A stretch of 64,000 nucleotides of DNA from a bacterium (GTDB lineage: Bacteria; Vulcanimicrobiota; Vulcanimicrobiia; Eremiobacterales; Eremiobacteraceae): assembly GCA_902812405.1 (NCBI GenBank), contig CADDZI010000001.1:62001-126000 (forward strand). The letters run 5' to 3'. A program made the position numbers and the translations under genes. The notes beneath the pieces are model-generated. The model was given only the letters and a program-made list of their open reading frames with translations, was not told where the DNA came from and searched no databases. This document shows, in pieces, positions 48,057 through 52,486 of this stretch; within the stretch, counting starts at the first letter, position 1; each line of letters starts with the position of its first letter.

Positions 48057-48575
48057 ATGAGAATCGGCTTTGGATTTGACGCCCATCGCCTCGTAGAAGG
48101 CAGGCCGCTCGTGCTTGCCGGATGCCGGATTCCCTTTCCGCGCGGGCTGGAGGGCCACTCGGACGCCGATGTCGCCGCCCATGCCGTCATCGATGCCGTC
48201 TTGGGGGCCGCGGCGCTGGGCGATTGCGGCTCGATGTTTCCGGCAAGCGACCCGCGTTATGCCGCTGCGGATAGTCTGGATTTGCTGCGGCAGGCGGTGA
48301 GGGCCGTGCGGGTAGCTGGTTTTGCCCCGTCTCAGGTGGACTGCACGATCGTTGCCGAGGAACCCGCGCTTGCCCCGCACGTGCCGGCCATGCGTCGCAA
48401 CTTGGCCGAGGCGTGCGGCATCCGGCTTGAAGAGTGCACGGTCAAAGCCAAGCACACCGAGGGCATGGGCTTTACCGGCGAAGGCGTGGGCATGGCGGCG
48501 TTTGCGGTTGCGGTCATCGAACCGTCGACCGCCGGCCCTCGCCGGCCGGCGGACGGGGCAGGCTTCCTGTCATGA
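48057..48575 (+). CDS. ispF: 2-C-methyl-D-erythritol 2,4-cyclodiphosphate synthase
   Basis: The following MEP-pathway step, a 172-residue zinc enzyme. Seen: RIGFGFDAHRLVEGRPLVLA, PFPRGLEGHSDADVAAHAVIDA (metal ligands Asp, His and His in two blocks), LGDCGSMFP and KAKHTEGMGFTGEGVG. It is separate from ispD, whereas some bacteria fuse the two. Its TGA overlaps the gltX start (ATGA). Confidence 0.96.
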   Translation: MRIGFGFDAHRLVEGRPLVLAGCRIPFPRGLEGHSDADVAAHAVIDAVLGAAALGDCGSMFPASDPRYAAADSLDLLRQAVRAVRVAGFAPSQVDCTIVAEEPALAPHVPAMRRNLAEACGIRLEECTVKAKHTEGMGFTGEGVGMAAFAVAVIEPSTAGPRRPADGAGFLS

Positions 48576-50065
48576 GCGGCGCACCCGCCGTCCGGGTTCG
48601 GTTTGCGCCGTCCCCGACGGGCTCGCTGCACGTTGGCGGTGCGCGCACCGCACTCTTCAATTACCTCTTCGCGCGCCGCTATGCCGGGCGGTTTGTGTTG
48701 CGCATCGAAGACACGGATACGGCGCGCTCCGAGCGGGTCTACGAAAGGGCCATCCTCGACGACCTGCGCTGGCTGGGTTTGTCCTGGGATGAGGGGCCGG
48801 ATAGAGGCGGACCGTATGGCCCGTATCGGCAGAGCGAGAGAGCCGAACGCTACCGCAACGCCGCGGCAGTCCTGCAGGCGGCGGGCGCGGCCTACGAGTG
48901 CTTCTGTTCAGCCCAGGAATTGGATGCGCAGCGTGCCGAGCAGGAGCGCCAGGGCCTGGCGCCGCGCTATCCGGGCACCTGCCGGCGGTTGACGGCCGCC
49001 CAGCGCGCCGCCTACGAAGCGCAAGGTCGCCGGCCGGCCCTGCGGTTTTGCATGCCCCAAACTGAGATTGTCGTTCGCGACCTGGTGCGCGGCGAGGTGC
49101 GTTTTCCGGGCGGCAGCATCGGCGACTTCGTCATTGTCCGATCAGACGGCCGACCCGCGTACAACTTTGCGGCGGTTGTTGACGACGATCAGATGGCGAT
49201 CAGCCACGTGATCCGTGCGGACGAGCACCTGCCCAACACACCCCGGCAGATCGCGCTCTACGAGGCTTTGGGACGGCCGCAACCTGCGTTTGCGCACGTC
49301 TCGATGATCCTTGCGCCGGACCATCAGAAGTTGTCCAAACGCCATGGCGCGGCATCGCTGGCCGACTTCCGCGAGCAGGGCTACCTGCCGCAGGCGCTGG
49401 TGAACTACCTGGCGCTCTTGGGCTGGTCACCCAAGGACAATCGCGAGATCTTCTCGCTGGACGAACTGACCGCCGCATTTTCGCTGGACCACGTGCAAGC
49501 AGCGCCGGCCGTCTTCGATGCGGCAAAGCTGCGCTGGTTCAACGCCCAGTACATCCGCCGTCTGCCGGCAGACGAGTGGGCGCGTCTCGTGCGCGAGGCG
49601 TGTGCGGCGCATGACGCGCTGCGCGATCTGCCCGAGCTGAACGATCCGGCGTGGGTCGAGCTCCTGGCGGGCGCGCTGCGCGACCACGTCGAGGTGCTGG
49701 CCCAGGTTCCGGCGGCAGTGGAGGCCTTGTTGGTGAACACGCCGCGTGCGAGTGCGCTCCCGCTATCCTTGGATGCGCCGACGAGGGCGTTCTTCGAGGA
49801 GCTGCGCGCAGCAGCCGCGGCCTGCGCCTCGCGGGAAGAATTTGCCCGGCTGGCCGGCCGCGACCGGCTGACTGCCTGGGGTGCACGATACGGTTTAGCC
49901 GGTCGGACGCTGTTTCGCCCGCTGCGTCTTGCGCTGACGGGCGAAGAGCACGGCCTGGAGATGCCCGTGCTCCTGCAGGTGCTGGGACCGCAGCGAGTGG
50001 CCGAGCGGCTGCGCGCAGCTGTGGCGGCACAATCCCCTGCGACCCGGGCCGGTGAGGCGACATGA
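48572..50065 (+). CDS. gltX: Glutamyl-tRNA synthetase
   Basis: A 497-residue class I synthetase charging tRNA-Glu. Seen: RVRFAPSPTGSLHVGGARTA (HIGH-type), RIEDTDTARS, RADEHLPNTPRQI, and the KMSKS-type loop HQKLSKRHGAASL. The length is normal. ATG 48572 overlaps the ispF stop. The stop at 50063-50065 also sits in an ATGA, so a short open frame (50062-50280) is coupled to it and carries the cysteine leader peptide in its 3' part. Confidence 0.96.
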   Translation: MSGAPAVRVRFAPSPTGSLHVGGARTALFNYLFARRYAGRFVLRIEDTDTARSERVYERAILDDLRWLGLSWDEGPDRGGPYGPYRQSERAERYRNAAAVLQAAGAAYECFCSAQELDAQRAEQERQGLAPRYPGTCRRLTAAQRAAYEAQGRRPALRFCMPQTEIVVRDLVRGEVRFPGGSIGDFVIVRSDGRPAYNFAAVVDDDQMAISHVIRADEHLPNTPRQIALYEALGRPQPAFAHVSMILAPDHQKLSKRHGAASLADFREQGYLPQALVNYLALLGWSPKDNREIFSLDELTAAFSLDHVQAAPAVFDAAKLRWFNAQYIRRLPADEWARLVREACAAHDALRDLPELNDPAWVELLAGALRDHVEVLAQVPAAVEALLVNTPRASALPLSLDAPTRAFFEELRAAAAACASREEFARLAGRDRLTAWGARYGLAGRTLFRPLRLALTGEEHGLEMPVLLQVLGPQRVAERLRAAVAAQSPATRAGEAT

Positions 50066-50176
50066 TTCGGTCCGTGCTGCGACCCGGCCCGCACCCGACG
50101 CACTGTCGCGCACGATGCGTGAGCCCGTCCGAAGCCGTGCCGGTGTTGGTCGACGCAGGAGGCTGGTGGGCAGGAG

Positions 50177-50297
50177 GGCTGCCTGCAGCCGTGAGAAGTG
50201 GAGTGGCGATGACGGATCTCGCGTGCCGCCGGGTGCCTTCCCCGAATTTGCCTGTTGCAGCCTCCGGCTGCTGCTGTTGACGGGCGCAAACGCGCCC
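50177..50297 (+). promoter_or_regulatory. Competing hairpins of a probable cysteine attenuator
   Basis: Two copies of the complementary pair GGCTGC and GCAGCC occur: 50177-50182 with 50185-50190, and 50257-50262 (GCAGCC) with 50266-50271 (GGCTGC, which contains the first Cys codon). Either copy can pair with its neighbour or cross-pair with the other. A third hairpin, GGGCGC-AAAC-GCGCCC (50282-50297), starts right after the leader stop codon. No U-tract follows, so the output could be Rho-dependent or translational. A canonical T-box sequence was not found in the gltX-cysE gap. Confidence 0.6.
50209..50280 (+). CDS. Cysteine-rich leader peptide (23 codons) upstream of cysE-cysS
   Basis: A short open frame starts at ATG 50209 with GGAG five bases upstream and encodes MTDLACRRVPSP followed by NLPVAASGCCC. 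It ends with codons TGC TGC TGT and the stop TGA at 50278-50280. The three terminal Cys codons, with a fourth at codon 6, lie just before a GC-rich hairpin and 81 bases before cysE. This is the layout of a translation-dependent sensor: shortage of Cys-tRNA would stall a ribosome on the last codons and change folding of the following RNA. Similar polycysteine leaders are known in mycobacteria. A 72-codon form from ATG 50062, coupled to gltX, shares the same end. Confidence 0.65.
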   Translation: MTDLACRRVPSPNLPVAASGCCC

Positions 50298-50361
50298 TGA
50301 CGTCTTCCCCCGCAAGCGTCTGGCCGGATCTTCCCTCCCTGCGCAGGCAGAAAGCACACAC

Positions 50362-51036
50362 ATGAAACGCGAGTCTTTTCTTTCCGAAATCCGTGCCGAC
50401 TGGCGCGCCTGCTTTGAGCGCGATCCGGCCGCCAGACATTGGCTGGAAGTGCTCTTGGCGTATCCCGGTTTTCACGCCATCCTTGCCCACCGCATCCTGC
50501 ACCGGGTGCACCGCGCCGGCCTACCCGTCCTGGCGCGCGTCGGTGCGCACGTTGTACGCTTCCTCACCGGTATCGAGATCCATCCGGCCGCTGAGATCGG
50601 CGCGGGCTTTTTCATCGATCACGGCATGGGTGTCGTCATCGGAGAAACGACCGAGATCGGACGCAACTGCACGCTGTACCAGGGCGTGACCCTGGGCGGC
50701 ACGAGCCTGCAGCGCGGCAAGCGCCACCCGACGCTGGAGGACAACGTCGTCGTGGGTGCGGGCGCGGCGATCCTGGGGGCCATCGTCATCGGTGCGAATA
50801 CCAAGGTGGCGGCGGGCGCGGTCGTCGTCAAGTCGGCGCCCGCCAACAGCACCGTCGTCGGCGTCCCGGGGCGGGTCGTGTTCGTGGACGGCAAGCGCGT
50901 GCGGGAACCGGTCGTGCCGCAAGTGGATATGCCCGACCCGACAACCGAAGCTCTGACCGCATTGGGTAAGCGGGTGGAAGAACTCGAGGCCCGCCTGCGG
51001 GAGGTGGAAGGTTCGCGTGGCACTCCGACTCTATAA
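50362..51036 (+). CDS. cysE: Serine O-acetyltransferase
   Basis: Makes O-acetylserine, the carbon skeleton for cysteine. The 224-residue protein has a short N-terminal helical region and the left-handed beta-helix GIEIHPAAEIGAGFFIDHGM, GVVIGETTEIGRNCTLYQGV, TLGGTSLQRGKRHPTLEDN, with the active-site Asp-His (FIDHGMG). It is of the shorter (Bacillus-like) type. A C-terminal coiled coil follows (ALGKRVEELEARLREVE). It overlaps cysS by 20 bases. Expression is probably controlled by the leader peptide upstream. Confidence 0.95.
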   Translation: MKRESFLSEIRADWRACFERDPAARHWLEVLLAYPGFHAILAHRILHRVHRAGLPVLARVGAHVVRFLTGIEIHPAAEIGAGFFIDHGMGVVIGETTEIGRNCTLYQGVTLGGTSLQRGKRHPTLEDNVVVGAGAAILGAIVIGANTKVAAGAVVVKSAPANSTVVGVPGRVVFVDGKRVREPVVPQVDMPDPTTEALTALGKRVEELEARLREVEGSRGTPTL

Positions 51037-52486
51037 CACGCTGACGCGACGCGTCGAGACCTTCGACCCGCTCCAGCCGGGGCGGGTCTCGCTCTACGTG
51101 TGCGGCATGACCCCCAGCTTCCACCCCCACCTTGGTCACGCCCGGACGTTCCTCACCTTCGACGTCTTGGTGCGCTACCTGCGGGCGCGCGGCTTTGAGG
51201 TCACCTACGTGCGCAACATCACGGATATCGACGACAAGATCATCGAGCGTGCCAACGCTGAGGGCGTTGCCTGGGACGACGTCGTGAACCGCTACTACGG
51301 CGAGTTCACGGTCTGCGCGCAACGATTGGGCCTGCTCACGCCGAGCGTCGAACCGCGGGCGACCGACGAGATTCCGGGCATGGTTGACTTCATTCGCCGT
51401 CTCGTCGAGCTGGGGGCGGCGTACGAAACCGCGGATGGCGTCTACTTCTCCGTGGCGCACGACCCGCGCTACGGGAGCTTGAGCCGGCGCAACCTCGACG
51501 AATTGCGGGCCGGCGAACGGATCGCCGTACGCGAGGAGAAAAGGGATCCGCTTGATTTTGCGCTCTGGAAGAAGGCAAAGCCGGGTGAACCGACGTGGCC
51601 CAGCCCGTGGGGTCCGGGCCGGCCGGGCTGGCACATCGAGTGCTCGGCCATGTGCCGGCGCTACCTCGGGGATCAATTTGACATCCACGGGGGTGCATCG
51701 GATTTGGTCTTCCCTCACCACGAGAACGAGGTCGCGCAGACGGAGACCGTCACGGGCAAGCATCCCATGGCGCGATTTTGGATCCACGCCGGTCTGCTCA
51801 ACGTCGATGGTCAGAAGATGAGCAAGTCGGCCGGCAACTTCGTGCCGCTGCCGGAGCTTTTGGACCGCTTCCCCGCGGCGGCCGTCCGCTACTTGTTTCT
51901 GCAGACAGGGTACCGCAAACCGTCGAATTTCAGCCTGGCGGCGCTCGAGGCGGCGGTGCGCGGTTTGCGCGGCCTGTATGCGGATGTCGACGCACTGCCG
52001 AGCGGTCCGCTCGTGCCGGATGGTCCGACAGCTGCGGGCGAAAGGCTGGCGTTGCCGGATGAGTTCGCTTCGTACCTTGATGACGACCTGAATACAGCCG
52101 GGGCGCTGGGCTGGTTGCAGCGTGCGCTGCGGGCGCAGCGCGCTGCCGGCACCGATCCTGCGACCCGCGATGCACGTGCGCGCACGCTGCGCGCGTGCCT
52201 GGACGTGCTGGGTTTACCCCCCAGCGGAGCGCACGCATCCCTCACCGCCCGGACCGTCGAGGTGCGGCTGGACGACGGCCATCGCAAGTTGCTGGCCGCG
52301 ATTGCCGGCGACGAGGCACCCGACGACCGGGCGCTGATCCAGCGCGTGGTCGAGCTGCGCCAGGCCGCGCGGGCGCGCCGTGACTATGCCGAATCGGACC
52401 GCCTACGTGATGTGCTGGGGCGTGCCGGGATCGTGCTCCATGACGGCAAGAACGGCACGGAGTGGAGGTTTCATGAGCCGGCGTGA
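51017..52486 (+). CDS. cysS: Cysteinyl-tRNA synthetase
   Basis: A 489-residue class I synthetase. Seen: LYVCGMTPSFHPHLGHARTF (zinc Cys and HIGH), TDIDDKIIERA, GWHIECSAM, FPHHENEVAQ and DGQKMSKSAGNFV. The start GTG 51017 lies inside cysE, so the two are coupled. Pairing cysE with cysS under one leader links cysteine synthesis and charging. It overlaps rlmB by 14 bases. Confidence 0.97.
   Translation: MALRLYNTLTRRVETFDPLQPGRVSLYVCGMTPSFHPHLGHARTFLTFDVLVRYLRARGFEVTYVRNITDIDDKIIERANAEGVAWDDVVNRYYGEFTVCAQRLGLLTPSVEPRATDEIPGMVDFIRRLVELGAAYETADGVYFSVAHDPRYGSLSRRNLDELRAGERIAVREEKRDPLDFALWKKAKPGEPTWPSPWGPGRPGWHIECSAMCRRYLGDQFDIHGGASDLVFPHHENEVAQTETVTGKHPMARFWIHAGLLNVDGQKMSKSAGNFVPLPELLDRFPAAAVRYLFLQTGYRKPSNFSLAALEAAVRGLRGLYADVDALPSGPLVPDGPTAAGERLALPDEFASYLDDDLNTAGALGWLQRALRAQRAAGTDPATRDARARTLRACLDVLGLPPSGAHASLTARTVEVRLDDGHRKLLAAIAGDEAPDDRALIQRVVELRQAARARRDYAESDRLRDVLGRAGIVLHDGKNGTEWRFHEPA

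Follow-up and report, generated by a model that had tools for sequence, protein, structure and literature searches.

We found that the gap between gltX and cysE in this genome encodes a short peptide ending in three Cys residues, which is almost certainly a real, conserved and regulatory Cys leader peptide, and that cysteine-responsive translational attenuation of cysE-cysS, as modelled by folding, is probably the best explanation for the arrangement. A Cys-ending ORF was present at the same place in most relatives, and the codons next to its Cys run were complementary to the ribosome-binding region of cysE.

The gltX-cysE-cysS locus

The window, i.e., the whole 64,000-nucleotide stretch that was analysed, contains gltX, cysE and cysS, each identified with an NCBIfam equivalog model at a score above its cut-off (Table 1). 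The gap between gltX and cysE is 296 nt long, and the leader ORF within it runs from an ATG at 50209 to a TGA at 50278-50280, followed after 81 nt by the cysE ATG at 50362. The 23-codon Cys-ending frame, the GGAG site, the hairpin and the 81-nt spacing described in the initial annotation could all be located in the sequence. Since the start of cysS overlaps the end of cysE, translational coupling of the two genes is plausible, and cysS was found downstream of cysE in all 14 family loci. Consensus scans of the window revealed no sigma-70-like promoter in the gltX-cysE gap and no terminator-like site in 49900-50500, the latter in agreement with the earlier remark that a U-tract is absent. No RNA family of Rfam was found in the gap, in which the search returned one chance match to a snoRNA at E<=5.

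Table 1. Features of the gltX-cysE-cysS locus, in coordinates of the window
Feature	Coordinates	Strand	Basis
gltX (glutamate--tRNA ligase), operon gene 5' of the leader	48572..50065	+	TIGR00464, 491 bits (cut-off 290)
Ribosome-binding site (GGAG), 5 nt 5' of the leader ATG	50200..50203	+	sequence
Leader ORF, MTDLACRRVPSPNLPVAASGCCC (23 codons plus stop)	50209..50280	+	sequence; a Cys-ending ORF occupies this place in 11 of the 13 family loci that could be tested
Anti-SD strand of a predicted long-range helix with 13 pairs and a bulge at 50256	50247..50260	+	MFE pairing with 50339-50351; lost in all 150 synonymous recodings
Terminal Cys codons TGC TGC TGT, proposed sensing codons	50269..50277	+	sequence and relatives
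Hairpin GGGCGC-AAAC-GCGCCC, starting 1 nt past the leader stop, no U-tract	50282..50297	+	compensatory changes in relatives
cysE ribosome-binding region with weak SD AGGCAG (50345-50350), leader-paired in the predicted off state	50339..50351	+	folding
cysE (serine O-acetyltransferase), proposed regulated gene	50362..51036	+	TIGR01172, 227.5 bits (cut-off 210.7)
cysS (cysteine--tRNA ligase)	51017..52486	+	TIGR00435, 442 bits (cut-off 340)

Conservation of the Cys leader

The family set comprised 14 genomes, one of which (G013) was cut by a contig end, leaving 13 testable gltX-cysE gaps. Using a fixed rule (a short ORF no more than about 260 nt 5' of cysE, with at least three Cys among its last eight codons), we found matches in 11 of these 13 loci, compared with 0.12 expected from dinucleotide shuffles, and none on the antisense strand of the family loci. 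The leaders ended in SCRCCC (two), SSCCCC (two), SCCC (two), CCCSC (two), SCCCCR, CCCCCCGCCCCC and, in the window, GCCC, with the stop placed at the Cys run or one codon beyond it in all 11 (in G001, one Arg codon later). Their N-terminal parts were dissimilar across most genera, and most relatives' leaders lacked a clear SD of their own. The comparison of gaps that had been proposed as a check was thus borne out, in that the Cys-run frame, the stop and the hairpin were kept in most relatives and the rest drifted. The two relatives with no Cys leader were G005, the gap of which is only 17 nt, and G007, the gap of which contains no Cys codons. In the latter (locus L015), a short Cys-free ORF, MDTAMKPPPADIQF, occupies the place of the Cys leader and may represent a decayed or re-purposed leader.

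Because TGCTGCTG reads as a Leu run in another frame, both frames were tested. A close in-frame ATG was present for the Cys frame in 11 of 11 leaders, compared with 1 of 11 for the Leu frame, the ends of which were scattered. We also found that the bare CCC-stop string occurs 3-17 times per family genome, near the reversed control in most; such a string is therefore no evidence by itself, the evidence being position and conservation. In a survey of these strings, 91 family sites were catalogued, 80 stretches were fetched, frames were determined at 83 sites and six were examined in detail. The sites read looked like chance occurrences, often out of frame within genes, and a genome-wide cysteine regulon was rejected; nor did any further conserved Cys leader emerge among them in the family genomes. 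Similarly, a scan upstream of cysK-like genes yielded no conserved Cys leader in the part of the loci that was parsed.

Predicted pairing between the leader and the cysE ribosome-binding region

The leader strand that is predicted to pair with the cysE ribosome-binding region has counterparts in the relatives. Specifically, seven relatives had GUCCUGC or a near variant in their Ser-Cys codons, which matched GCAGGAC with 7-8 perfect pairs. The longest Watson-Crick helices between leader and SD summed to 76, whereas leaders that had been shuffled gave 60.1 +/- 3.3 and never more than 70 in 400 trials. When the window leader was recoded synonymously, pairing between SD and leader was 0.72 for the natural sequence and 0.14 for the recoded ones, with 0 of 150 reaching as high; over 11 leaders the same procedure gave a combined p of 2.8e-4, which is a guide only since the relatives share ancestry and are not independent, and overall stability was not in excess. 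The complementarity between leader and SD exceeds what the peptide requires. Two of the 11 cases were weak: in G006 and G001 the SD helix was absent from the predicted ensemble, though complementary strings were present.

Helix length and synonymous recoding were used in place of RNAduplex energies, which gave a weak signal against shuffles because shuffled SDs keep their complementary composition. Helices were counted per sequence, since the MAFFT alignment of whole gaps misregisters the anti-SD.

The initial annotation had pointed to a different structure, a pair of competing folds formed by GGCTGC and GCAGCC. Both copies are present in the window, the first as GGCTGC 50177-50182 and GCAGCC 50185-50190, the second as GCAGCC 50257-50262 and GGCTGC 50266-50271, one arm of which includes the first terminal Cys codon. 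Such pairs were not seen in the leaders of relatives, and we rejected these hairpins as the switch; the structures that recur are the helix between leader and SD and the post-stop hairpin, which are nested rather than mutually exclusive.

Post-stop hairpin and simulated stalling

The post-stop hairpin (arms GGGCGC 50282-50287 and GCGCCC 50292-50297 in the window) starts 0-4 nt past the stop in most relatives, the exception being the genus of G004 and G011, in which it has another, longer register. Double changes preserve it: GGGCGC/GCGCCC is replaced by GGGUGG/CCACCC in G001 and by GCGGC/GCCGC in G003 and G010. The hairpins of single relatives were often no better than shuffles, the genomes being G+C-rich, and the argument for this element is carried by the compensatory changes, not by the stability of any single hairpin. 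Among the 11 family leaders, only that of G008 (locus L003) had a U-tract after the hairpin, GGGGCGCCTGGGCGCCC being followed there by TTTCCTTTTTTTT; this relative may have gained an intrinsic terminator and a transcriptional output.

Stalling was simulated by masking a ribosome footprint in the thermodynamic fold. In the window, the SD was unpaired at 0.02 in the free RNA and at 0.48 when the first Cys codon occupied the A site, an effect that depends on the footprint, the boundary shifting by about one codon and a footprint reaching 12-14 nt 5' of the A-site codon reducing it to 0.03-0.14; with the ribosome at the second or third Cys codon or at the stop, the value was 0.02-0.04. Some Cys position raised SD accessibility in 8 of 10 relatives; it was hardly changed in G001 and showed a small, mixed response in G006. 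The hairpin formed at 0.81 with the ribosome at the first Cys codon and was melted with the ribosome at the stop.

These data suggest the following model. In the resting state, 50247-50260, just 5' of the terminal Cys codons, would be base-paired to 50339-50351, which would make the cysE ribosome-binding region inaccessible, with the hairpin nested within this helix and compatible with the off state. When charged tRNA-Cys is present, ribosomes would pass the three Cys codons, end at the TGA and leave, after which the helix would re-form and cysE would be off. Should charged tRNA-Cys run short, translation would halt once the first Cys codon has entered the A site, and the halted ribosome would cover the anti-SD strand, so that the cysE site opens; cysS expression would follow that of cysE through the overlap of the two genes. 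The stalling, the switch itself, the coupling to cysS and a transcript running through from gltX are what we infer from the arrangement. The initial annotation had left open whether the output is Rho-dependent or translational, and the translational alternative, by way of sequestration of the SD, has now gained sequence support, which the Rho-dependent one has neither gained nor lost.

Alternatively, the Cys leader may sense cysteine but act through premature termination, either intrinsically at the post-stop hairpin or with the aid of Rho, rather than by masking the SD. The compensatory changes in the hairpin and the terminator-like arrangement of G008 are consistent with this explanation, as are the proposal of Rho for mycobacterial cys leaders (PMC1262725) and the intrinsic terminator of the Rhodobacterales cysS leader uORFC-8-2 (PMC8632094). 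We nevertheless consider it unlikely: apart from the rarity of U-tracts and the lack of a terminator-like site in the window, no antiterminator partner was seen for the hairpin, and a terminator at this position would have the wrong sign for read-through upon starvation, because in the simulation the hairpin stays free during a stall at the first Cys codon and is melted by a ribosome at the stop codon. The hairpin was therefore rejected as a terminator outside G008.

Rather improbable is a leader that senses cysteine and acts by another route, such as ribosomes that scan or reinitiate between the leader and cysE, or a change in mRNA stability through the stalled ribosome and the hairpin. The leader often begins shortly past the gltX stop, so that local coupling is plausible, and the hairpin is placed where slowing or protection would be possible; however, a distance of 56-100 nt from stop to start across a hairpin disfavours simple reinitiation, and the SD complementarity beyond the needs of the peptide would be left unexplained. 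That the frame is non-regulatory, i.e., a chance Cys-ending ORF or a run read in the Leu frame, is very improbable despite the abundance of CCC-stop strings and the Leu run one frame away, given the number of loci matched, the start and stop that fit the Cys frame only, and the leaders of Chloroflexota and family f3 (see below), which keep Cys without the wording of the Leu run.

Comparison with known systems

Translational attenuation by SD masking, the reading that we favour, has its closest parallel in mycobacteria. Polycysteine ORFs of mycobacteria, called leaderless in the title of the work by Canestrari et al. from 2020 (Mol Microbiol 114:93-108), are reportedly cysteine-responsive attenuators. 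Like these, the window leader has a Cys run at the stop of a short ORF before cysteine genes, with no conserved terminator, and in both cases the proposal is that the leader masks the downstream SD until a ribosome stalls and exposes it, here on the basis of prediction and simulation. Unlike these, it belongs to another phylum and to a gltX-cysE-cysS arrangement rather than the mycobacterial cys operons, has a GGAG of its own and lies behind gltX, and in most relatives is followed closely by the hairpin with compensatory changes.

Cys leaders without terminators have been predicted in Mycobacterium, Propionibacterium and Bifidobacterium (PMC1262725). Two further articles, both of which cite the work of Canestrari et al., attribute an SD-masking model of translation attenuation to cysteine genes of M. 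smegmatis (PMC13236596) and describe polycysteine ORF attenuators as conserved in M. tuberculosis (PMC9094748). The leader uORFC-8-2, which precedes cysS in Rhodobacterales, has two Cys codons and a U-run and is interpreted as a case of transcription attenuation (PMC8632094). It resembles the window leader in being a short ORF with adjacent Cys codons and two stems before a gene of cysteine use, but differs in its U-run and intrinsic terminator, the window having no U-tract and cysE-cysS as the regulated unit. The LEU element of actinobacterial leuA (PMC1262725) is similar in the predicted pairing of a run of cognate codons with the SD of the gene that follows, but it concerns leucine and has a pseudoknot architecture, and mutations of its Leu codons were reportedly without effect on regulation. 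In contrast to trp-type attenuators, no mutually exclusive antiterminator and intrinsic terminator were found in the window. A literature search, the coverage of which excluded most subscription journals, yielded no report of a Cys leader for Vulcanimicrobiota or Chloroflexota; polycysteine attenuation would thus extend beyond the groups described in the literature surveyed. The layout is also compact, with the codons adjacent to the Cys run doubling as an anti-SD.

T-box elements and Cys leaders in other phyla

Similarity searches for the T-box (RF00230) gave no match in the window or in the 14 family genomes, in accordance with the earlier claim that no T-box precedes cysE. As a control, 13 of 16 Bacillota-type loci retrieved with the same CysE had RF00230 5' of cysE, and in Bacillota loci with gltX directly upstream it lay inside the gltX-cysE gap. 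The earlier statement that Bacillota relatives use a T-box here therefore holds for the Bacillota, but not for the kinship, since in the CysE tree the host protein clustered with sequences named Candidatus Eremiobacterota/Vulcanimicrobiota, outside the Bacillota. The T-box and the leader share the same operon place and the same proposed signal, uncharged tRNA-Cys; the T-box RNA reads the tRNA directly, whereas in the case of the leader the reading would be done by the ribosome that translates it.

Cys leaders were also found elsewhere. In family f3, of the same class, three of four loci had the order gltX-leader-cysE-cysS, with leader endings CCRRCSR or CCRRCKR. In a group of Chloroflexota the order was ispF-leader-cysE-cysS, with leaders CCACL, CCACP, CCGCP and CCVCP and, in four, a strong hairpin beginning at the stop. 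A strict Cys-leader rule was matched in 8 of 30 Chloroflexota loci, compared with 0.14 expected; none of the 16 family f2 loci and none of the 77 other named loci matched it. The test for SD masking in the Chloroflexota and f3 set was not significant (combined p 0.057), and we therefore claim only a leader and a hairpin there. On the CysE tree, at least 11 changes of leader label are required, a count that includes patchy losses and undetected cases.

On these grounds, we lean towards the view that cysteine-responsive leader control of cysE-cysS recurs, unrecognised so far, beyond Actinobacteria and Rhodobacterales, with Vulcanimicrobiota/Eremiobacterota and Chloroflexota as at least two further phyla that use it, and that in Vulcanimicrobiota/Eremiobacterota it takes the position of the Bacillota T-box, so that ribosome-based and RNA-based readers of the same tRNA may have replaced each other in one slot. 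Two unrelated sensors of tRNA-Cys charging would then occupy the same gltX-cysE gap in different phyla, and whether a leader peptide took over from the T-box or the T-box from the leader can therefore be tested directly. A short Cys-ending ORF with a post-stop hairpin before cysE may also serve as a marker when cysteine control is sought in lineages that lack cultured representatives.

Several minor observations were made in these additional loci. Four Chloroflexota loci (L252, L254, L255 and L256) have a layout unlike that of the window's family: a CGYAAYG-type string, located after the hairpin and before the cysE SD, is able to pair with the Cys codons themselves (UGUUGCG). In L252 and L280, also of Chloroflexota, AATACTAA / TATACTAA strings lie 10-20 nt 5' of the leader ATG, suggesting that transcription may start at or near the ATG, as in the leaderless polycysteine ORFs of mycobacteria. 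Directly 5' of the cysE start, six family f2 loci (L016, L018, L020, L024, L025 and L028) have a repeated TTGACGG...GGGTTA(A/C)ACTGTT string, which resembles a strong promoter whose transcript would have a very short 5' UTR or none, at the place taken by the attenuator in the leader family.
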